IMG/VR virus record: IMGVR_UViG_3300034082_002553
Coordinates: 1 to 21,728 of that record
Source: a virus
DNA length: 21,728 nt
Direction: 5' to 3' (one strand)
Part shown: positions 1,745 through 20,208 of the stretch, piece by piece
How the letters are laid out: every line of letters begins with the position of its first letter
How positions within the stretch are numbered: position 1 is the first letter of the stretch
Made by a program: the position numbers and the translations under genes
The notes under the pieces: model-generated
Database searches by the model: none
The model's input: the letters and a program-made list of their open reading frames with translations, nothing else
Told to the model about the DNA's origin: nothing

Positions 1745-2023
1745 TTAGTTATTCTGTATATAATCTAATATTGTATTAATATTTTCTAAAGAAAATCCGT
1801 GTAAAGGTGAACCACCCATTTTTAAATACTCATTGTAAAGGTTATTGTATTCATCTTCTGAATAAACACTACCATCCAATTCTGAATAAATAACGTTAGT
1901 ATCAGAAGCATCTACTGTTTTGTTTTGTAAACGTGTCTCACCGTAAGCAGGACCAATTGGACCAACCAATTCAGTTCCAGATATTTCTTCATTCACAAAT
2001 TTGTTAAACTTTTTAATCTTCAT
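1745..2023 (-). CDS. 92-aa hypothetical protein with capsid-targeting-like N-terminus
   Basis: The protein starts MKIKKFNKFVNEE, a short amphipathic tag that matches the pattern at the start of several proteins encoded at 14388-16552 and resembles the capsid-targeting sequence of T4 internal proteins (MKTYQEFIAE). The possible cleavage point would be after V-N-E12, a conservative variant of the T4 gp21 consensus (I/L)-x-E. The rest is acidic, with GPIGP near residue 22 and a tyrosine-rich middle (SEDEYNNLYNEYLKM); no domain is recognised. Its ATG lies inside the end of the upstream gene with an 11-base overlap, so the two are probably co-translated. A head-packaged role is inference; otherwise function unknown. 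Confidence 0.7.
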   Translation of the reverse strand: MKIKKFNKFVNEEISGTELVGPIGPAYGETRLQNKTVDASDTNVIYSELDGSVYSEDEYNNLYNEYLKMGGSPLHGFSLENINTILDYIQNN

Positions 2024-2477
2024 TTTTAACTGTTATTTTTTCAAAATACTCATCTTGTTCTTGTAATGAATACTCATCTTTTTTTGTATTGTAGATAATA
2101 TTATATAAAAACTTATCATGTAGTTTATGAGTTTCATTTCCCTTCATAATAACTAAACTAGTTTCTTCTTCATTATCTTCATCAACAATATCAATTATTT
2201 GTAATCCTATTCTACCATTTCTATCATGTAAGTCACAAATAACTTTCTTATATCTTTCAATAAGTTCTTTTATTTTCTTAACAGTAACATTTTTAGACAA
2301 ATACATAAGGTCTCTACCTTTTTCTTCATCTGTGGTCTCATTATACAAATTGAGAAAATCATTTTCTCTTTTTGTTAACTTACCTTTTTTTGATATTTTT
2401 TCTAGAATTCTATTCATTTCTATTTCTTTTAATGATTCACCTAAAATGTAATATTTAATCAGTCGTTTTATTTGCAT
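2013..2477 (-). CDS. Hypothetical phage protein, 154 aa
   Basis: I place the start at the ATG at 2477 (MQIKRLIKYYILGES) rather than at an in-frame ATG at 2750, because the longer version would run antiparallel through the first 185 bases of the 1447-aa gene and across the divergent promoter region. The protein is highly charged and mostly helical: KISKKGKLTKRENDFLNLY (about residues 28-46) looks like a short helix-turn-helix or hairpin, followed by a lysine/glutamate helix and a beta-rich segment (GRIGLQIIDIVDEDNEE). No family is recognised. It is the first gene of the leftward cluster, overlaps the next gene by 11 bases, and would be transcribed from the A/T-rich palindromic region at 2499-2515. 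Confidence 0.65.
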   Translation of the reverse strand: MQIKRLIKYYILGESLKEIEMNRILEKISKKGKLTKRENDFLNLYNETTDEEKGRDLMYLSKNVTVKKIKELIERYKKVICDLHDRNGRIGLQIIDIVDEDNEEETSLVIMKGNETHKLHDKFLYNIIYNTKKDEYSLQEQDEYFEKITVKNED

Positions 2478-2498
2478 TACTTGTCTTAATTGTCTTTT

Positions 2499-2515
2499 AA
2501 TATATAGTATATATT
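2499..2515. promoter_or_regulatory. A/T palindrome in divergent promoter region
   Basis: AATATATAGTATATATT is a perfect palindrome of 8-bp arms around a single central base. It lies between the leftward gene starting at 2477 and the rightward gene starting at 2566. Each arm offers an AATATATA core, also part of the TAATATATAA motif upstream of other structural genes. A bidirectional promoter or operator is plausible, but A/T-rich palindromes arise easily by chance. Confidence 0.35.
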
Positions 2516-2540
2516 CCAAGAAGGATTTACGTTTTTTATA

Positions 2541-2549
2541 TATACTTTG
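2541..2549 (+). promoter_or_regulatory. Putative promoter core (TATACTTTG) before the tape-measure gene
   Basis: TATACTTTG ends 16 bases before the ATG at 2566 and matches the TA-N3-TTTG pattern also seen before the genes at 1705 (minus strand) and 18312. It resembles the Bacteroidetes -7 element with one extra spacer base. The predicted leader would be about 10 nucleotides. Confidence 0.3.
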
Positions 2550-2565
2550 GAAATAAAAGTTTTTT

Positions 2566-5500
2566 ATGGATAAGATACTATTAAAAGCATTAGACAATTT
2601 ATCAGTCGCTCTTGAAAAGATTTCAGAGGCGTTGCAGAAAAAAGGTGATGGGAAAGACCAATCAGCTACTGCTACTGCTTTACAAAGTGGAGATTTCTCA
2701 GATACATTAGCAGAAATTAACACCAGTGTTAAATCTATAAAAGTTGACACTCAGCAGATTCTAAAGAATCAAGAAACTATCATTCAGTTACAAAAGCAGA
2801 AAAGTAGTGATAAGAAAACTGAAGCTGTTGAAGACTCTGGTGATGATAAGAAAAAAGGTCAAATTAAAAAAGGTGTAACAGCTATTTTATTAATAGCAGT
2901 AGCGGTTTTAGCAATTGGTTTAGCATTTAAATTAGTTGGTAAAATAGACTTCTTATCAGTAGTTGGATTATCAATTGCGATAGTTTTAGTAGCAATAGCA
3001 TTTGAAAGAGTAGCTAAATTAGACTTAACTCCTAAAAAGGCAGCGTTTGCCTCATTAGCAATGGTTATAATGTCAGTCGGTGTAATGATATCATCTTTCT
3101 TTTTATCAAAAGTATCACCTATATCAATAAAACAATTCTTAACAGCTGCTGCAATAGCTGGATTATTCTATTTTGTCGGACCAACAATGGCAACTATGAT
3201 CAATGCTCTTGAAAATGAGACAACAGTTGAAGCAGAAGGAATGGGTAAAGTAAAAACTAAAAAATTAAGTTTTGGTAAATTAATAGCAACTGCTATATTC
3301 TTACCTATACTAATGGCAACTATGGCATTAGGTATAATGATAGCATCAAGAATATTATCGGGAGTTAAACCAATGTCAATGGGTCAGATAATAACTTCTT
3401 TATTAATAGCAGGAATGTTTATGATGGTTGCTAGTGGAATCAAAGGTTTAATACACGCACTAACAGAAGAAACCGAAGTAAAAGCCAAAGGATTTGGTGG
3501 AAAACAAAAAGGATTAAATATGGGTAAACTTTTACAAGTGGCTCTTATCTTACCTCTTATAATGTTAAGTATCTCAGTTGGTATTTGGTTATCATCTATG
3601 ATATTAAGTAAGGTTCAACCTATTGGATTTATGCAAGCTTTATCAGCGATAGCAATTGCGGCGATATTCTCAGTAGCGGCTTTTGGTATTAGTAAGTTAA
3701 TTAAAGTCTTAGGTGAAATACCTTTACCAATGGCTATATTTGCGGCGATAGCTCTTCCATTAATACTTCCAGCAATGGCTTTATCAATAACTTTATCTTC
3801 TTATATATTTTCTAAAATTAAACCAATTGGATTCATGCAATTCCTAACAGCAATTGCAATTGCTGCGGTATTTGTAATAGTTTCTTTTGGAATGAAACAA
3901 ATAGTTAGTTCAATATCAACTATGAAATGGGGTGATGTTCCTAAAATACCAGTATTCTTCACATTAGTATCATTAGCTATTGCAACATCAGCATGGATAT
4001 TTAATAAATTTAAAAAAGAAATAGATGGATTAGGATTCTTAACAATACTTAAAGTTTTATTCTTAGGGGTGGCAATTGGATTAATAGCACTTGTTGTTGG
4101 ATTCGCATTAAGAATAATGGGAACATTAAAATGGGGTGATGTTATAAAAGTTCCGGTGTTCTTCGCATTAATGGCAGCTGCCATCGCAGGAGCGGCTTGG
4201 ATATTCTCTAAATTTCAAAAAAATATAGACGGATTAGGATTCTTAACAATACTTAAAATATTAATACTTGGAGTTGCTTTAGGAATAGTAGCGGCAGTTA
4301 TTGGTATTGTAATGAGAATTTTCAAACTCATAGGACTTGGAGTAACAGATGCTGTAAAAGGAGGTTTAATAATTGTAATCATAGCGGCTGTAGTTGCAAT
4401 ATCATCACTCATACTATCCAAAGGAAGTTATAAAAAATATCCATCCTTAAAATGGTCACTTGGAGTGGCTGCAGCTTTAGGAGTATTTGGTGTTGCTGCT
4501 TTACTTTTAGGAACACAAGCACTTAATCCATTCTTTTATGCAGGACTAGGTATAATAATGTTAGTGGCCGCAACTATAATAGCAACATCTCATATATTAG
4601 CAGCTGGTAAATACACTAAATATCCGACTCTTAAATGGAATCTAGGAGTGTCAGCGGCATTAGCATCATTTGGAATAGCAGCTATACTATTAGGATTTAA
4701 TGCAATTAATCCATTCTTCTACGCAGGATTAGGAATAATAGTATTAGTGGCGGAAACAATTCTTGATGTCTCTAAGATTTTAGCAAAAGGTAAATATAAT
4801 TTACCGGGATTAGCGACTTGGACAGCATCTGTTGTACTATTATACACATTATTTACTCCACTTATTATACTATTAGGTGCAGTAGGAGCGATGGGAGCAG
4901 TAGTTGAATTCTTTGGAGGATCTAATCCATTTGACGAAGGTCGTAAAATGTTGAAACAAATAGCATGGTCCATAGTTGATGTTTCAAATATACTACAAAA
5001 AGGTAACTATAAACAAGGTCCAACGAAAGAGTGGGCGACCGGTATATCAATTGCATTAGGTGCATTTGCACCGGTTTATAAAATGTTAGTTGACAATGCA
5101 CCAGGACTTTTTGGCGGAGGAGGCGGAGTCGGACCAGATGATTTTGCAAAAGCAATAAAAACAGTATCTCATGGTATTATAGCAGCGGCTTGGTATTTCT
5201 CCAAAAATAAAGCGGCTTTCGTAAATGGACCACCTGAAAAGTGGGCCAAAGGCGTTGGACTAGCAATTGGAGCTTTTGCACCGGTTTATAAAATGTTAGT
5301 TGACTTCCCATTCAGTGGCGGTCATAAAATGAAAAGAGCTATTGTTCTAATTGCGGAGGGTGTTGTCGCAGCAGCTGGTGTTTTTGAGAAAGGAAAGGCT
5401 AAATTTGAAGAAGGTAAATATCCGTCAAAAAAATGGGGCAAAGGAGTAGGTGCTGCATTAAAAGCATTCGCTCCAGTATTTGAGGCTTTATCAGGTAGAA

Positions 5501-6909
5501 GTTGGTATGAAAGTGGTGACGATGTTATAGATAATATGAAATATGGTATTGTTACTATCGCAAAAGCATTAGTATTAGCAGCAAAAGAATTTATAAAAGT
5601 AAAACCAGAAGCTTGGAAATCACACCCAACATCTGAATGGGCAAGAGGTGTAGGTAAAGCGGTTATCGGATTTATGGACCTATTTGACACAATTGAAGAA
5701 AGAGGTTACACAACTACTTCATTTGCTTTGAACTCAATGATATTAAAAGTTGGTATTAGAGCGATGGCTGATGTGGCAAGAATTCTTTGGACAAATAAGA
5801 AATTCTTTACCGTTAAGTTAGATCCAAACTTTATAAAAAATATATCTAAGAATCTTTTAGGATTTGGAGCTTTAGCCTTAGCATTAGATAAGATGTTAGT
5901 AAGTGAAAAAATGGTAACATCATCAAATAGTGGAGTCTTTGGAATTGGTGCTTCTAAATCCACAAAAACTGTAAGAGAAAGAAGAGATTTAAGTTTAGTT
6001 AAAGACCTTACTATACAATTAATAAGTGTTGCTCAAATATTGTGGAAAAATAAAAAGTTTTTTGAGTTTAGTTTAGATCAAAATTGGGTTAAAAATTTAT
6101 CAAAAAATTTACTTGGTTATGCGAAGTTACTAAAACAATTAGACACGGGTAGTGGTTTAAAAAATGTTCTAATGGCTGGTCTAACTGCTATAAATCCAAT
6201 AGCTGGGTTAGCATCAGTACTTATAGAATCTAATAGTGATGATGCTGTTACTAAAGCGGCTAAAAAGTTAGTAAATGTTGCTAAAATAATTCACTCTGGT
6301 AGAAAAGCATTTGAAACAAAGATAGATCCAAACTACATGAAGAATGTAGGTAAGAACATATTAGATTTCAATCAAGTTATTAAGAAACTAGCTGAGGCGG
6401 AAAAAGGTACAAGTTTCTTTGGAAGAATAGGCCAAGGAATTGAGGGTATGTTAGGAACAGATCCAATATCTCAAATAGTTAGAAAAATGGTAACATTAGC
6501 AAAAGGATATGATGCTCTAGCAAGTTCTTTAATGAAATTAGGATTTGCAATGAGAACTCTCAATGTTAAAAATATGAGAGATTTGGGAGTAATGACTAGA
6601 GATTTAGCAGAAGGAAAAATGCCTAAAAAGGGTGGAGCGCCTAGTCAAACTCAAATGCAGATGCCGGCACCATCCAAAATGGCAAGTGTTGGTGATAGAG
6701 CATCGGATAAAAAATTAAATCCTAACAAATATTTAACTGCGGATCAAGCTAAGAGAAATCACCTGTATTACTTATCAAAACAAATGGATATGATGATTGA
6801 TGGTCTAGGAGCAGGTAAAGGTGATCCAAATGCTCCTAACCCAGTAGTTGAAAAATTAGACGAAATACTAAGATTATTAAAAGATGCTGAACTTGATGAA
6901 AAGAAATAA
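2566..6909 (+). CDS. Probable tail tape measure protein, 1447 aa, built of ~71-aa repeats
   Basis: The N-terminus (residues 1-85) is coiled-coil-like (LLKALDNLSVALEKISEAL). Residues 100 to about 760 are a chain of hydrophobic segments resembling membrane helices, and the rest is progressively more hydrophilic, ending in another coiled-coil helix (VVEKLDEILRLLKDAEL). Large size, hydrophobic stretches and terminal coiled coils fit a tail tape measure protein, which sets tail length and exits during DNA ejection. At the usual ~0.15 nm per residue it predicts a tail near 0.2 micrometres. A degenerate unit, ending in (L/F)-S-K-x-x-P or K-G-x-Y-K-x-x-P-x-x-x-W-x-x-G-V, recurs about every 61-85 residues through most of the chain. 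No lysozyme or peptidase domain is seen. Alternative: an internal virion or ejection protein. It heads the rightward block. Confidence 0.6.
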   Translation: MDKILLKALDNLSVALEKISEALQKKGDGKDQSATATALQSGDFSDTLAEINTSVKSIKVDTQQILKNQETIIQLQKQKSSDKKTEAVEDSGDDKKKGQIKKGVTAILLIAVAVLAIGLAFKLVGKIDFLSVVGLSIAIVLVAIAFERVAKLDLTPKKAAFASLAMVIMSVGVMISSFFLSKVSPISIKQFLTAAAIAGLFYFVGPTMATMINALENETTVEAEGMGKVKTKKLSFGKLIATAIFLPILMATMALGIMIASRILSGVKPMSMGQIITSLLIAGMFMMVASGIKGLIHALTEETEVKAKGFGGKQKGLNMGKLLQVALILPLIMLSISVGIWLSSMILSKVQPIGFMQALSAIAIAAIFSVAAFGISKLIKVLGEIPLPMAIFAAIALPLILPAMALSITLSSYIFSKIKPIGFMQFLTAIAIAAVFVIVSFGMKQIVSSISTMKWGDVPKIPVFFTLVSLAIATSAWIFNKFKKEIDGLGFLTILKVLFLGVAIGLIALVVGFALRIMGTLKWGDVIKVPVFFALMAAAIAGAAWIFSKFQKNIDGLGFLTILKILILGVALGIVAAVIGIVMRIFKLIGLGVTDAVKGGLIIVIIAAVVAISSLILSKGSYKKYPSLKWSLGVAAALGVFGVAALLLGTQALNPFFYAGLGIIMLVAATIIATSHILAAGKYTKYPTLKWNLGVSAALASFGIAAILLGFNAINPFFYAGLGIIVLVAETILDVSKILAKGKYNLPGLATWTASVVLLYTLFTPLIILLGAVGAMGAVVEFFGGSNPFDEGRKMLKQIAWSIVDVSNILQKGNYKQGPTKEWATGISIALGAFAPVYKMLVDNAPGLFGGGGGVGPDDFAKAIKTVSHGIIAAAWYFSKNKAAFVNGPPEKWAKGVGLAIGAFAPVYKMLVDFPFSGGHKMKRAIVLIAEGVVAAAGVFEKGKAKFEEGKYPSKKWGKGVGAALKAFAPVFEALSGRSWYESGDDVIDNMKYGIVTIAKALVLAAKEFIKVKPEAWKSHPTSEWARGVGKAVIGFMDLFDTIEERGYTTTSFALNSMILKVGIRAMADVARILWTNKKFFTVKLDPNFIKNISKNLLGFGALALALDKMLVSEKMVTSSNSGVFGIGASKSTKTVRERRDLSLVKDLTIQLISVAQILWKNKKFFEFSLDQNWVKNLSKNLLGYAKLLKQLDTGSGLKNVLMAGLTAINPIAGLASVLIESNSDDAVTKAAKKLVNVAKIIHSGRKAFETKIDPNYMKNVGKNILDFNQVIKKLAEAEKGTSFFGRIGQGIEGMLGTDPISQIVRKMVTLAKGYDALASSLMKLGFAMRTLNVKNMRDLGVMTRDLAEGKMPKKGGAPSQTQMQMPAPSKMASVGDRASDKKLNPNKYLTADQAKRNHLYYLSKQMDMMIDGLGAGKGDPNAPNPVVEKLDEILRLLKDAELDEKK
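3925..4332 (+). repeat. Tandem 204-bp duplication inside the tape-measure gene
   Basis: Two adjacent 204-bp (68-codon) units, 3925-4128 and 4129-4332, are still recognisable at DNA level. A 15-base string starting AAATGGGGTGATGTT begins both units, and a 27-base string is identical at 4027-4053 and 4231-4257, at the same 204-base offset. In protein both contain the block I-D-G-L-G-F-L-T-I-L-K. The reading frame is preserved, so this looks like a recent in-frame duplication. Confidence 0.85.
5065..5304 (+). repeat. Second direct repeat in the tape-measure gene (30 bp, 210-bp offset)
   Basis: A 30-base string is identical at 5065-5094 and 5275-5304 and encodes F-A-P-V-Y-K-M-L-V-D in both copies. 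The offset of 210 bases is exactly 70 codons. It marks another duplicated unit of the same periodic protein, in its hydrophilic half. Confidence 0.8.
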
Positions 6910-14387: not shown

Positions 14388-14759
14388 ATGTCAAAGATAA
14401 ATAATTACGAAGAATTCATAAATGAAGGGTTCTTTAGAAAGGTATTTGGTAAGAAAAAGAAATCTATGAATACAGTTAAGTCAAGAATTGATTTATGTGT
14501 TGATGAGATAGTTAAATTTCTAAGTGATAATAATATATATACTTGGGATAGATTTGGAAGTAGTACTAAGTTTGAAAGAGATACAGTTAATAAACTAATA
14601 GACCATCATGCAATGAATATGAAAGAGTTGGGAGAAATAAGATTTAGAATTAGATTAGAATTATCCGATAGAAGACAACTCTTAGATTACATTAAAGAGT
14701 TAGAACAAAATGAGGAGTATGAAAAATGCGCCAGAATAGTAAAAAAGATAAGTGAATAA
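14388..14759 (+). CDS. 123-aa protein with capsid-targeting-like N-terminus and UVR-like C-terminus
   Basis: The first residues, MSKINNYEEFINEG, match the T4 internal-protein targeting tag (MKTYQEFIAEA) at Y-x-E-F-I-x-E, including a canonical I-N-E13 | G site for a gp21-type prohead protease. A basic patch (GKKKKS) follows, which could bind DNA. The C-terminal 30 residues (LLDYIKELEQNEEYEKC plus ARIVKKI) resemble the UVR helical hairpin of UvrB/UvrC and ClpATPase adaptors, and closely match the end of the small protein at 16807-17016. It is the first gene of a five-gene rightward operon whose promoter lies in the inverted repeat just upstream. Packaging in the head is inference; the partner of the UVR-like hairpin is unknown. 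Confidence 0.7.
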   Translation: MSKINNYEEFINEGFFRKVFGKKKKSMNTVKSRIDLCVDEIVKFLSDNNIYTWDRFGSSTKFERDTVNKLIDHHAMNMKELGEIRFRIRLELSDRRQLLDYIKELEQNEEYEKCARIVKKISE

Positions 14760-14760
14760 T

Positions 14761-15150
14761 ATGAAAATCAAAAGATTTGAATCAAAAGAAGAAAAGGTAA
14801 AAGACCAAGAGGTTTTATTTACTGCTAAATCCTTAGAAAAAGATAAGGAAGAAAAACCATCATTCAAGACCGAAGTTGAGGATAATGAAAAAGTTCAGAA
14901 AGAATTCAAGAAGTCTATGGATAAAATTGAAAAATTTGAAAACTTCACAATCGAGATTGAAGTTAAAACTGAAGAGGAGGAATCTGAAGAAGAAATTCAA
15001 GAAGTTGGATGTGGCTGTTGTGATGACTGCAACGGAGAAGAAGGATGTGAATGTTGTGATGATTGTAATTGTGGAACAGAAGAAGTAAACCCTGAGTCAG
15101 ATGTTAAAGTTATGAACATACAAGACTTTATAGGATCATTAAATAAATAA
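14761..15150 (+). CDS. 129-aa acidic protein with nine-cysteine cluster
   Basis: I use the ATG at 14761 (MKIKRFESKEEKVKD), one base after the previous stop, rather than an upstream in-frame GTG at 14752. The N-terminus resembles the short tags of the neighbouring proteins. The middle is almost all Lys and Glu and probably disordered. Residues 84-104 hold nine cysteines in 21 positions, arranged as two copies of G-C-x-C-C-D-D-C-N 12 residues apart, suggesting a metal-binding or disulfide-rich knuckle. The C-terminus ends MNIQDFIGSLNK, again a short amphipathic tag. No family is recognised; a metallothionein-like or zinc-structural role is possible. It is translationally linked to both neighbours. 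Confidence 0.7.
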   Translation: MKIKRFESKEEKVKDQEVLFTAKSLEKDKEEKPSFKTEVEDNEKVQKEFKKSMDKIEKFENFTIEIEVKTEEEESEEEIQEVGCGCCDDCNGEEGCECCDDCNCGTEEVNPESDVKVMNIQDFIGSLNK

Positions 15151-15748: not shown

Positions 15749-16552
15749 ATGAAACACTTAAAAACATATCAAATATTTGAATCTGAATTCTTTACAATCA
15801 GTGATGAGAGAAGAAAAAAACTAATTGATTATATAAATAGTAGTTTAGATGGCGCGGATATGGATTTTTCTTCTTGGATATATCAAAATATAATTCGAGG
15901 AAAAGAAGAACATACAGAACTTAATGATTTTATTCAAAAAGTATCTCCTAATTGGAAAAAAATACTCGATGAATACTTAGCTAAGTATAAAAGTGGAGTA
16001 ATGAAAATTGGACAAGATGACCAAAATGAGTGGTTTGGTGTAAATTATAACTCAAGTCTTAAACAAAAAGAAGTAATAGGTGATCAAGAGATAACAAAAA
16101 ACTTTTATGTAACATTTGAGAAAAGCGAAGACAACCTGAAAAGATGGTTCAATGGACTAGGAACTCTTATAAGTGACTTTTACAAAGCTTGCACAGAAGG
16201 TGAATTAAAAAACTCGGCAATTTCTTTCAAATGTGGATATGATGGTAAACATTTTATAGAAGACAATGACCATCTAAAGTTTTATTGGTATAAAGATGAT
16301 GATAAAAATAAAGTATTAGAAGTATATAATAATTGGTTGAAGAAAACTGGTATACAAACTAAGAAAAGAGCTTATGATTTTGGAATAGACACTGCAAAAG
16401 GTAGAGATAAAAATAGCTTTGGTCTAATGGTTGCAACTAAGGTGAATAACCAGTTTCAAAAACTTAAATCACAGTATGGAAAAAAGTTTACATCTGAACA
16501 ATATGCAGATTATATAATAGATATGTTAAACAAAACAAAGTTTAAAATATGA
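15749..16552 (+). CDS. 267-aa protein with capsid-targeting-like tag; weak HopA1-effector resemblance
   Basis: The start MKHLKTYQIFESE shares K-T-Y-Q-x-F-x-x-E with the T4 internal-protein tag MKTYQEFIAE, the closest match in the window. The body has no signal peptide or membrane segment. From about residue 118 the order N-F-Y-V-T-F, then a helix, then I-S-F-K-C-G, then D-H-L-K-F-Y-W-Y, then R-A-Y-D-F-G-I-D and S-F-G-L-M-V-A resembles the phosphothreonine-lyase/HopA1-like effector fold, with a basic residue in the expected strand and a D-x-(L/V)-x-x-Y strand. This is a weak pattern match. If both readings hold, it would be a head-packaged protein delivered to the host cell. It overlaps the next gene by ATGA. 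Confidence 0.7.
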   Translation: MKHLKTYQIFESEFFTISDERRKKLIDYINSSLDGADMDFSSWIYQNIIRGKEEHTELNDFIQKVSPNWKKILDEYLAKYKSGVMKIGQDDQNEWFGVNYNSSLKQKEVIGDQEITKNFYVTFEKSEDNLKRWFNGLGTLISDFYKACTEGELKNSAISFKCGYDGKHFIEDNDHLKFYWYKDDDKNKVLEVYNNWLKKTGIQTKKRAYDFGIDTAKGRDKNSFGLMVATKVNNQFQKLKSQYGKKFTSEQYADYIIDMLNKTKFKI

Positions 16553-18311: not shown

Positions 18312-18932
18312 ATGGCATTACCACATTTTACACAGGTAAAAGGAGGAGGCTCACCAGGTGGTCCAGGTACACTTCCAGATGAAGTAGTATACCTAAACCT
18401 ATTTGAGATTACTTTTATCTTACCAGTAATATTAACAGCTCAAGGAAGAGACCCAATTTTATTGTTACAAAATGCAACTAAAATTGATATGAACTTAACT
18501 GAATTCGATGTTGCTGCAAAAACACAAAGATTCAAATATTCAACTAGAATGTTTATGGCATCACCTACTAAAACAGATGGTACTCTATCTATTCCAATTC
18601 AGGTGAATGTTAACCAAAATGGTTCTCTGGAAACTTGGAATACAATGAAAGCATGGTACGATTTAGTATTTAACTCTCAAAATGGTGGTCTTCACTATAA
18701 GAGTGATATTATTGGTACTATCATTGTTAATCAACACGATAAAAAAGGTGTTGTATTAAGACGTGTTACTTTCCAAAACGTACAAATTACAAAATTAGCT
18801 GGTTACTCACTTGACTGGTCATCAAACAACATCATTGAATCTTCTCAAGCCGATTTCGTTTATGATTACTTCATTGATGAGTATATCGACCAAAACTTTG
18901 GTATTAATCCACCATTAGTAGACGGATATTAA
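18312..18932 (+). CDS. 19: Tail tube protein, gp19-like
   Basis: A 206-residue protein with the layout of T4-type tail tube proteins, which stack as hexameric rings inside the sheath. An N-terminal Gly-rich arm (GGGSPGGPG) precedes strands around NLFEITFILP. A helix with LETWNTMKAWYDLVF follows, then K-K-G-V-V-L-R-R-V-T-F-Q-N and a C-terminal VYDYFIDEY. The K-G-x-x-x-R-x-x-x-F-x-N strand and the (F/Y)-x-Y-D-Y-F end are family features. T4 gp19 is 163 residues, so loops or termini are extended here. It stands alone between its own promoter region and a terminator, which fits separate high expression. The sheath gene is on the other strand 1.4 kb away rather than next to it. Confidence 0.88.
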   Translation: MALPHFTQVKGGGSPGGPGTLPDEVVYLNLFEITFILPVILTAQGRDPILLLQNATKIDMNLTEFDVAAKTQRFKYSTRMFMASPTKTDGTLSIPIQVNVNQNGSLETWNTMKAWYDLVFNSQNGGLHYKSDIIGTIIVNQHDKKGVVLRRVTFQNVQITKLAGYSLDWSSNNIIESSQADFVYDYFIDEYIDQNFGINPPLVDGY

Positions 18933-19031: not shown

Positions 19032-19289
19032 CATACTTGGCATATTAAAATTTCCCATATTACCCATATTTGACGCATTTTTCATCATCGAGTTGGTATC
19101 TGGCATACCTTTTTGTTGTGATTCTTCATCTTTCTTTCTATTCGATTCCTCTTCTTCCATAATTTCGTTAACTAACTTAACATTTTCTTCCAACATCCAG
19201 AATGGCCAATTATCCATAGCCCACTCTTGTGTGTGGAAATGTTTCTGTAATAGTAACTTATTCTTTAATATATGTTTCAAAGGCATCAT
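19029..19289 (-). CDS. Small Met/Asn-rich protein overlapping gp26-like gene
   Basis: The 86-aa protein starts at ATGATG (19289), inside the last 32 bases of the gp26-like gene and in a different frame. I prefer this start to a longer in-frame one at 19358, which would overlap by 100 bases. Residues 1-45 are helical with aromatic residues (HTQEWAMDNWPFWMLEENVK), then comes an acidic/basic helix (IMEEEESNRKKDEESQQKG), and the last 25 residues are a Met/Asn/Gly low-complexity tail. In T4 the gp26 gene has a small partner needed for hub assembly (gp51), and other myophages have overlapping tail-assembly-chaperone pairs. By position this is a candidate for such a partner; sequence similarity is not evident to me. 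Confidence 0.65.
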   Translation of the reverse strand: MMPLKHILKNKLLLQKHFHTQEWAMDNWPFWMLEENVKLVNEIMEEEESNRKKDEESQQKGMPDTNSMMKNASNMGNMGNFNMPSM

Positions 19290-20208
19290 GAATAACGAAA
19301 ATACCTGACGCTCCGTTGGGAAATTGCATGTCCGTGTGGACCTCCTCACCACACTCACACACTTTCTTTAATTCTTTAATACCAAAAGTCATCTTACTAA
19401 CAGCACCATTTAAGAATTGAAAAGAGATATCATCCATATCTTCAAAATCTTTTAATTTAGCTTTAATACCATCATAAGTTATTGCTGATCTACCAGCCAA
19501 CATAAATGGAATAATTTTCAAGAACGATAAGTTAGGTGTTCTTTTTTCATTATTTTCTTTAACAATATAATCAGTAAATGCCTTTTGTAATCCAATGTTT
19601 GGTGGAGTTAATTCAAAAGTTTTACCATTAACGGTCTTAAAGTTATATGTTCTACTACTTTGGTTAAAGTATTTATCTAGTTTTTCATCAATTTCATGAA
19701 AGTGAAAAGTATCTCTTTTCAACTCTAAAGAGACATCAGTTGAACAACTAGGACATTTAGCCGTAACAGCTAAAGAGTTTCCTTGTTGGAAAGTTAATTC
19801 TCTAATTAAGAAAATTAAAAATAATCTATCTTGGTCTTTAATCTCCAAAAAAGATCCTAATTTTCCATCAGGAAATTTAATTCTAACACAAGACTTCAAA
19901 ATGTCATTCATTTTCTCAATAATATCATAGAAGTTTTCATCATCAACCATCGAATAAGCTTGAATCTCTTTAACTTGAGCTGGTCTAATCATAAAGAGTG
20001 TACCAGTTGGATAAAATTGACCACAAGGCAATTCTCTAATATCAAAATTAAAGAAATTTAAATCATTTGTTCTTGTGTTATCAACAACAGGTTCCGCAAA
20101 AGGAATATCTGAGTTAACAGATTGTTGTTTACCAGTTTCTAAATCAGAAAGGTGTCTTTTTAAGTAGTCTTCTTCCGACATTTCCTGTTTTTGATTGTTA
20201 TCTGACAT
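19258..20208 (-). CDS. 26: Baseplate hub / tail assembly protein, T4 gp26-like, with zinc ribbon
   Basis: The 316-residue protein matches the T4 gp26-like baseplate family (Pfam T4_baseplate) as I remember it: a disordered N-terminal 45 residues, then ELPCGQFYPTGTLFMIRPAQ, a helical D-I-L-K-S-C-V block, the strand K-D-Q-D-R-L-F-L-I-F-L-I-R-E, then C152-P-S-C155 and later C284-E-C286-G, which together look like a split zinc ribbon. T4 gp26 is 208 residues and acts in assembly of the central baseplate hub. The gene is preceded by TAATATATAA (20235-20244 on the minus strand, 27 bases before the ATG) and is followed by the overlapping small ORF and a terminator. Confidence 0.8.
   Translation of the reverse strand: MSDNNQKQEMSEEDYLKRHLSDLETGKQQSVNSDIPFAEPVVDNTRTNDLNFFNFDIRELPCGQFYPTGTLFMIRPAQVKEIQAYSMVDDENFYDIIEKMNDILKSCVRIKFPDGKLGSFLEIKDQDRLFLIFLIRELTFQQGNSLAVTAKCPSCSTDVSLELKRDTFHFHEIDEKLDKYFNQSSRTYNFKTVNGKTFELTPPNIGLQKAFTDYIVKENNEKRTPNLSFLKIIPFMLAGRSAITYDGIKAKLKDFEDMDDISFQFLNGAVSKMTFGIKELKKVCECGEEVHTDMQFPNGASGIFVIHDAFETYIKE

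Follow-up and report, generated by a model that had tools for sequence, protein, structure and literature searches.

A candidate tape measure protein built of repeated units in Mahaphage-type huge phages

The ladder gene and its neighbours

The window analysed here is a stretch of 21,728 bases, and the IMG/VR record behind it is a fragment of that length only. An uninterrupted open reading frame at 2566-6909 (+), here called the ladder gene, encodes a protein of 1447 aa, and the same window carries genes for a tail tube protein, a baseplate-hub-like protein and a tail sheath that runs past the contig end (Table 1). The sheath is 86% identical to that of a 634,780 bp genome (LR745206) and 81% identical to that of a 642,428 bp genome (LR756502), with tube protein identities of 87% and 69%, respectively. 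Both genomes belong to the Mahaphage clade and have predicted Bacteroidetes hosts (Al-Shayeb et al. 2020, PMC7162821). The sheath identities place the window, by its sequence, as a fragment of a Mahaphage-type huge phage.

Table 1. Features of the window, with the evidence on which each is placed.
Feature	Position	Strand	Evidence or remarks
Conserved neighbour, 92 aa	1745..2023	-	78/83 loci
Tape measure protein candidate	2566..6909	+	intact ORF; relative at 83 loci; LR745206 homologue with at least 4 hydrophobic segments
Charged/helical N-terminal head, residues 1-95, conserved start MDKxLLxxLxNLSxALE	2566..2850	+	family consensus
Possible extra first unit, marginal	2848..3003	+	residues 94-146; HMM E 0.009-0.05; two predicted helices
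Block A, four very hydrophobic units (anchors 182, 266, 349, 417)	2992..3903	+	unit alignment and profiles
Hydrophobic cassette without DNA similarity to near relative L010	3075..4421	+	flanks both 88-92% identical
Block B, two hydrophobic units (anchors 481, 549), DNA 72% identical	3886..4296	+	DNA repeats, unit alignment and profiles
Block C, seven units (anchors 619-1011), near-invariant G/Y/P/W anchor residues	4300..5691	+	unit alignment and profiles
Block D, three soluble units (anchors 1076, 1161, 1244)	5668..6384	+	unit alignment and profiles
C-terminal region, residues 1274-1447, helix then low-complexity tail	6385..6906	+	family consensus
Conserved neighbour, 141 aa, C-terminal hydrophobic segment	6942..7367	+	79/83 loci
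Conserved neighbour, 143 aa	7423..7854	+	79/83 loci
Conserved neighbour, 217 aa	7875..8528	+	78/83 loci
Conserved neighbour, 1912 aa	8579..14317	-	68/83 loci; weak beta-propeller match
Tail tube protein	18312..18932	+	phrog_45, E 7.6e-14
Baseplate-hub-like protein	19258..20208	-	phrog_36717 / phrog_150
Tail sheath, continues past contig end	20346..21728	-	phrog_34521, E 7e-57; 86% identity to LR745206

The ladder gene has more than 100 relatives, all of them unannotated. A first scan of IMG/VR returned 5 relatives and a second one 117. The best 80 were retained, and these together with three GenBank genomes make up the 83 loci over which conservation of the neighbouring genes was counted. The tube, hub, and sheath genes lie within 12-15 kb of the ladder gene in the window and are near it also in LR756502, where the sheath is 15 kb away, with distances to the sheath of ~50 kb in LR745206 and ~160 kb around the circle in LR756501 (735 kb). 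Such unequal distances among related huge phages indicate that the tail genes are scattered and have been reshuffled.

The three small + strand genes 3' of the ladder gene (141, 143, and 217 aa), for which searches yielded no functional assignment, are perhaps chaperone candidates. The middle part of the 1912 aa neighbour is weakly similar to the beta-propeller 1l0q (E 0.0019), and a CBM_5_12 carbohydrate-binding module is found in 9 of 11 scanned members of its family (best E 4e-6), which has relatives of up to 2521 aa. Its sequence would be consistent with a baseplate or fibre-linked protein, possibly a sugar binder.

The listed ORF at 2013-2750 (-) overlaps the start of the ladder gene. Its relatives are only ~150-165 aa, and its real start is therefore probably near 2480, in which case the two genes would probably be divergent with a short gap between them. 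A similar starting motif is present in the unrelated small proteins encoded at 1745-2023 (-), 14388-14759 (+), and 15749-16552 (+) (MKIKKFNKFVNEE, MSKINNYEEFINE, and MKHLKTYQIFESE), and looks as if it were a sorting or cleavage signal. The 132 aa ORF at 14752-15150 contains a cysteine-rich repeat, GCGCCDDCNGEEGCECCDDCNC, at 15000-15068, encoded by a 36 nt tandem repeat and possibly metal-binding.

Repeated units in the 1447 aa protein

The original prediction was that the protein is a ladder of units of about 70 residues, marked by a recurring anchor at 16 positions. The anchor motif is present at all 16, with successive spacings of 84, 83, 68, 64, 68, 70, 61, 61, 71, 68, 62, 69, 65, 85, and 83 residues (range 61-85, mean 70.8). 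When all pairs of units were locally aligned and compared with shuffles preserving composition in 10-residue windows, the mean Z for adjacent units was 11.05 and the highest 19, which is beyond chance. It had been set beforehand that a lack of periodicity outside two duplications visible in the DNA would count against the ladder; the test was run and the periodicity stood. BLASTP of the protein against itself returned the identity alone, with no off-diagonal match. A Z of 13 for a possible unit before the first anchor was discarded, as it was due to overlap with the next unit.

The units become less membrane-like along the ladder, as had been noticed at the outset, mean Kyte-Doolittle hydropathy falling from 1.3 to 0.06 and charged residues rising from 9% to 20%, a change that is seen family-wide. 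There are 27 hydrophobic segments in the 1447 aa, most of them before residue 790 and ~25 in the hydrophobic half. Within block C the first three units are hydrophobic and the remainder amphipathic, and the invariant positions of C units are the anchor residues G, P, and W. Repeats are also detectable in the DNA, at 3918/4122 (72%) and 5017/5227 (76%), and as a three-copy family of 46 nt at 5815/6070/6319.

It might be argued that the periodicity is a by-product of the composition of hydrophobic or amphipathic helices, with no duplication involved, as the early units are almost pure membrane helix and A and C can hardly be aligned on the single sequence. However, the Z values within blocks are 10-19 against shuffles that preserve local composition, the repeats are visible in the DNA, including a 255 nt copy with one mismatch in contig L011, and the G/P/W anchors are invariant residues. 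For adjacent units a composition artefact is already refuted, and as a general explanation it was rejected, its probability being close to nil.

On the single sequence the units group into four blocks, with anchors 182-417 in A, 481-549 in B, 619-1011 in C, and 1076-1244 in D. A and B are linked at Z ~4-6, B and C at up to ~4, and C and D at up to 5.8, with weak or no links for A-C and A-D. With unit profiles made from all relatives, A matches B at 99.4% (E 2e-21) and C matches D at 96.5% (E 9e-10), which, as far as sequence goes, makes the existence of two super-blocks, A+B and C+D, certain. Between A and C the profile match is 22% (E 9.5e-4), aligned in the correct anchor register, and between A and D there is no match. 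The proposal that the anchors correspond from end to end thus holds strongly within A+B and within C+D, and weakly across the join near residue 580.

This weak link would be expected if the hydrophobic (A/B) and soluble (C/D) ladders had separate origins and were joined, each then duplicating by itself, and the hydrophobic block has indeed been swapped as a cassette in relative L010. Against this, the A-C match lands exactly on the common anchor, the unit at 619 is mixed, with an A-like hydrophobic helix followed by a C anchor, and the profile self-alignment is unbroken over the join at a shift of one to several units, although it may blur units. Separate origins are therefore considered rather unlikely, and common descent of the hydrophobic and soluble units, as judged from their sequences, likely. 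The profile self-alignment of whole relatives reaches E 8e-174, which is not taken as the main evidence because an alignment of whole relatives blurs the units.

In low-confidence models each unit has two predicted helices, which flank the anchor. The AlphaFold models of two parts of the ladder, made with alignments that exclude three rows from GenBank records, have a mean pLDDT of 54 and 59, too weak for conclusions on the fold. No credible match was found in a search of solved structures. Foldseek with one of the models gave one significant match, to an uncharacterised 983 aa marine phage protein; many of the non-significant matches are named tape measure, and these were given no weight as evidence.

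Gain and loss of whole units among relatives

Unit profiles were applied to a non-redundant set of 58 full-length relatives, less than 90% identical to one another and 956-1691 aa long. These contain 10-19 units each, at a median spacing of 67 aa (5th-95th percentile 58-83.5 aa, 714 spacings), and in all 58 the hydrophobic units come before the soluble ones. Protein length follows unit number (r = 0.96, slope 73 aa per unit), a correlation that describes the family and is not independent proof, because it is expected of any protein that is mostly repeat. There are 4-7 A/B units and 5-13 C/D units per protein, and the variation in length comes mainly from the C/D units (r 0.94, against 0.40 for A/B). 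The homologues in the GenBank genomes have 12 units in 1128 aa (LR745206), 10 units in 995 aa (LR756502), and 17 units in 1691 aa (LR756501). No match to the family profile was found in LR756504 (636 kb, sheath 56% identical), which would mean that the ruler of this genome has diverged greatly or belongs to a different kind.

That the ladder grew by serial duplication, as originally proposed, is borne out by whole-unit duplications and losses seen directly between near-identical phages. Contigs L011 and L016, from different metagenomes, align over ~24 kb with 3 mismatches in 13,364 bases and 1 in 10,847, and are thus at least 99.98% identical apart from exactly one 255 nt tandem copy, corresponding to one D unit, with four D units in L011 and three in L016. 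The two 255 nt copies in L011 differ at one position. An assembly artefact is possible in this pair in the one sense that a collapsed repeat could be hidden in L016.

The same pattern is found across the family. Where the neighbouring 143 and 217 aa proteins are at least 90% identical, the ladder proteins have equal unit numbers or differ by a single unit (57-85 aa) or a pair of units (122 aa), and gaps of at least 30 aa between relatives more than 50% identical mostly measure 50-75 aa or about double to triple this size. In 30 of the 58 genes there are tandem repeats, some 92-99% identical, whose period is 174-255 nt, and on a tree of the neighbouring 143 and 217 aa proteins 32 changes in unit number are needed. 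The ladder is thus still changing by serial duplication and by the loss of whole units. The cassette of hydrophobic units that has no DNA similarity to L010 (Table 1) indicates, at the sequence level, that cassette exchange is a second mode by which the ladder changes.

The tape measure role and comparison with known systems

That the ladder gene encodes the tail-length ruler, or tape measure, is well supported but not proven. The original suggestion of this role draws support from the gene being the sole candidate, from its counterparts in isolated phages, from the tail genes nearby, and from the tail lengths of the isolates. In the complete LR745206 genome the ladder homologue is the sole ORF of at least 250 aa with at least 4 hydrophobic segments. 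As is typical of tape measure proteins, the product is long and mainly helical, as far as the helix predicted at low confidence across the two modelled parts can tell, and has a hydrophobic region, made up of its 27 segments, of the sort associated with membrane passage or the binding of chaperones. A tape measure gene is usually the largest helical one in its tail cluster. Tube, hub, and sheath genes are in the neighbourhood in the window, in LR756502, and in the isolates, and are not close in LR745206 and LR756501. For the Mahaphage family there was no match to a tape measure model in Pfam or PHROGs for any member tested, which is not a defining failure, because these models cover described families only.

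One large unannotated counterpart is present in each of Chryseobacterium phage MA9V-1, Sphingomonas phage PAU, and Tenacibaculum phages PTm1 and pT24; the genes concerned are MA9V1_009, MA9V2_061 (in MA9V-2), PAU gp97, PTm1 ORF-027/028, and pT24 BPT24_118. The product of PAU gp97 has 1096 aa and that of the pT24 gene 925 aa. In PAU, MA9V-1, MA9V-2, and PTm1 the counterpart comes after genes for the sheath, a tube-like protein (phrog_32623), and a hub-like protein (phrog_36717), a few genes past them in MA9V-1, PAU, and PTm1. The isolate counterparts are linked to one another in sequence, that of pT24 being joined via PTm1, as its direct link is weak. Within its unit region, the ladder family is matched by a profile of the isolate genes at 92.3% (E 5.5e-7); the reversed control reaches 0.9% and eight shuffles at most 0.4%. 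MA9V1_009, the sole ORF of the multi-hydrophobic kind in MA9V-1, matches phrog_4372, 'tail length tape measure protein' (E 2.1e-6), a match whose hydrophobic part may reflect composition. The PTm1 counterpart (L128:10671-13321) is split into ORF-027 and ORF-028, which overlap by 4 nt and are annotated as 'hypothetical' and 'ubiquitin-like proteins', the split being put down to a frameshift or a sequencing error.

The tails of MA9V-1 and MA9V-2 have been measured at 170.34 nm (PMC10537231) and 166 nm (PMC13414440). The tail of TP901-1 shrinks from 118 to 65 nm with deletions that remove 347 aa, that is (118-65)/347 = 0.153 nm per residue (PMC5099701). With 0.15 nm for each residue of an extended helix, the 1082 aa of the MA9V counterparts would give 162 nm against the measured 170.34 and 166 nm, a comparison at a single protein length that yields no slope. 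On this scale the tail would be expected to be ~190-230 nm long in the phage of the window and ~120-255 nm across the family, the lower values resting on a length of 937 aa for the TP901-1 tape measure protein. Two helices per unit would not be extended if they form hairpins, and to the extent that the low-confidence models can be relied upon this counts against an extended ruler.

It could instead be that the 1447 aa protein is a DNA-ejection or membrane-channel protein rather than a ruler. It has ~27 hydrophobic segments, far above the six predicted in TP901-1 (PMC5099701), and there are weak PHROG matches to a DNA ejection protein in two members of the family and to a virion structural protein in three. 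The protein length nevertheless agrees with the measured MA9V-1 and MA9V-2 tails. Contractile-tailed phages need a ruler, and neither LR745206 nor MA9V-1 has another candidate of the multi-hydrophobic kind. The two roles are also compatible, because tape measure proteins are themselves thought to form a membrane channel, and an ejection or channel protein that is not a ruler is improbable.

It had been suggested as well that each unit matches a constant number of rings of the tail tube. With 1.5 A for each residue, a unit would span 87-128 A, or 2.1-3.1 rings of 40.6 A, with 3.1 rings for an 85 aa unit and 2.1-2.3 for one of 58-61 aa; these would fit the suggestion, but unit sizes are 57-85 aa in the family and 61-85 aa in the 1447 aa protein, and the median unit of 67 aa spans 2.5 rings. 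With a spacing of 58-83.5 aa and single-unit changes of 57-85 aa, the ring number is neither constant nor an integer. The idea of a ring register is not supported by these values and is very unlikely. The unit makes more sense as a module of evolution whose size can vary within limits than as a fixed multiple of tube rings. Variable unit size is what would be expected if total length alone matters, and replacement of a repeat by alanines in TP901-1 left infectivity unaffected (PMC5099701).

The ladder gene is thus, with high probability, a tape measure of contractile-tailed Mahaphage-type phages. Its head of ~95 aa is followed by ~16-17 two-helix units, each roughly 60-85 residues long, and the protein ends in a C-terminal anchor; the row of units grows and shrinks by unequal recombination. 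Such recombination between adjacent units would shift the length of the row by one or two whole units. Stretched out inside the tail tube, with ~0.15 nm for each residue, the protein would set the length of the tail; chaperones, perhaps among the 141, 143, and 217 aa products, would hold it before tube assembly, and the tube would polymerise to its end. At infection the ruler would be released, and its hydrophobic half may exit the tube and line a channel through the inner membrane. The chaperone-bound ruler, tube polymerisation, release, and channel are drawn from the general background on tails (PMC8718954, PMC9022992). Hydrophobic and soluble units may derive from one ancestor, and a more tentative extension, held at somewhat below even chances, is that every segment, including the membrane-active half, copies one ancestral two-helix unit, the soluble form serving as spacer and the hydrophobic form as a channel helix pair, so that the ruler is quantised and tail length jumps by ~9-13 nm per recombination event.

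The term 'tape measure' is absent from the main text of Al-Shayeb et al. 2020 (PMC7162821), and a recent lineage paper reports that it found no tape measure gene (PMC12619734). Tape measure genes have been missed in many huge phages, and the ladder provides a recognisable family in the largest of them. The ruler appears to change length stepwise, related viruses gaining or losing whole units, and such steps make the old question of 'units on the tape' directly testable. The near-isogenic pair L011/L016, which differs by one unit, is a natural experiment on the setting of tail length and its rate of change.

A literature search of partial coverage found no paper describing such a tape measure ladder. 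The kind is already known, because repeats, duplications, and losses have been described for tape measure proteins with 11-residue repeats (Belcaid et al. 2011, PMC3271669). What is new is the size of the unit and its two-helix nature, the presence of units in the hydrophobic half, the family across huge phages, the five isolates with a previously unnamed counterpart, and the one-unit pair. The size of the hydrophobic half, with ~25 segments against six in TP901-1 (PMC5099701), is unusual.

Like the ladder family, the tape measure proteins with 11-residue repeats are long helical tail proteins with tandem repeats, aromatic markers, and gain and loss of repeats, and in these systems (PMC3271669; TP901-1, PMC5099701) there are likewise hydrophobic and repeat regions; the length of these 11-residue-repeat proteins is proportional to the tail, as it would be for a ladder ruler. 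They differ in having units of 11 or 18 residues, in ~29 copies outside the hydrophobic regions, whereas in the ladder each unit has 58-85 residues and is predicted to form two helices, and units make up the hydrophobic half as well. A test for W/F-marked repeats of 11 or 18 residues in the ladder family found a period of 58-85 residues instead, with W and P invariant once per C unit. T4 gp29 likewise acts as tape measure in a contractile tail whose sheath and tube are T4-like, and is ~590 aa without such a ladder. The isolate counterparts (MA9V-1/-2, PAU, PTm1, pT24), recorded as 'hypothetical' or 'ubiquitin-like' in phages of 213-235 kb, share with the ladder family the order of charged N-terminus, hydrophobic ladder, soluble part, and low-complexity end, with units that are fewer and more diverged.
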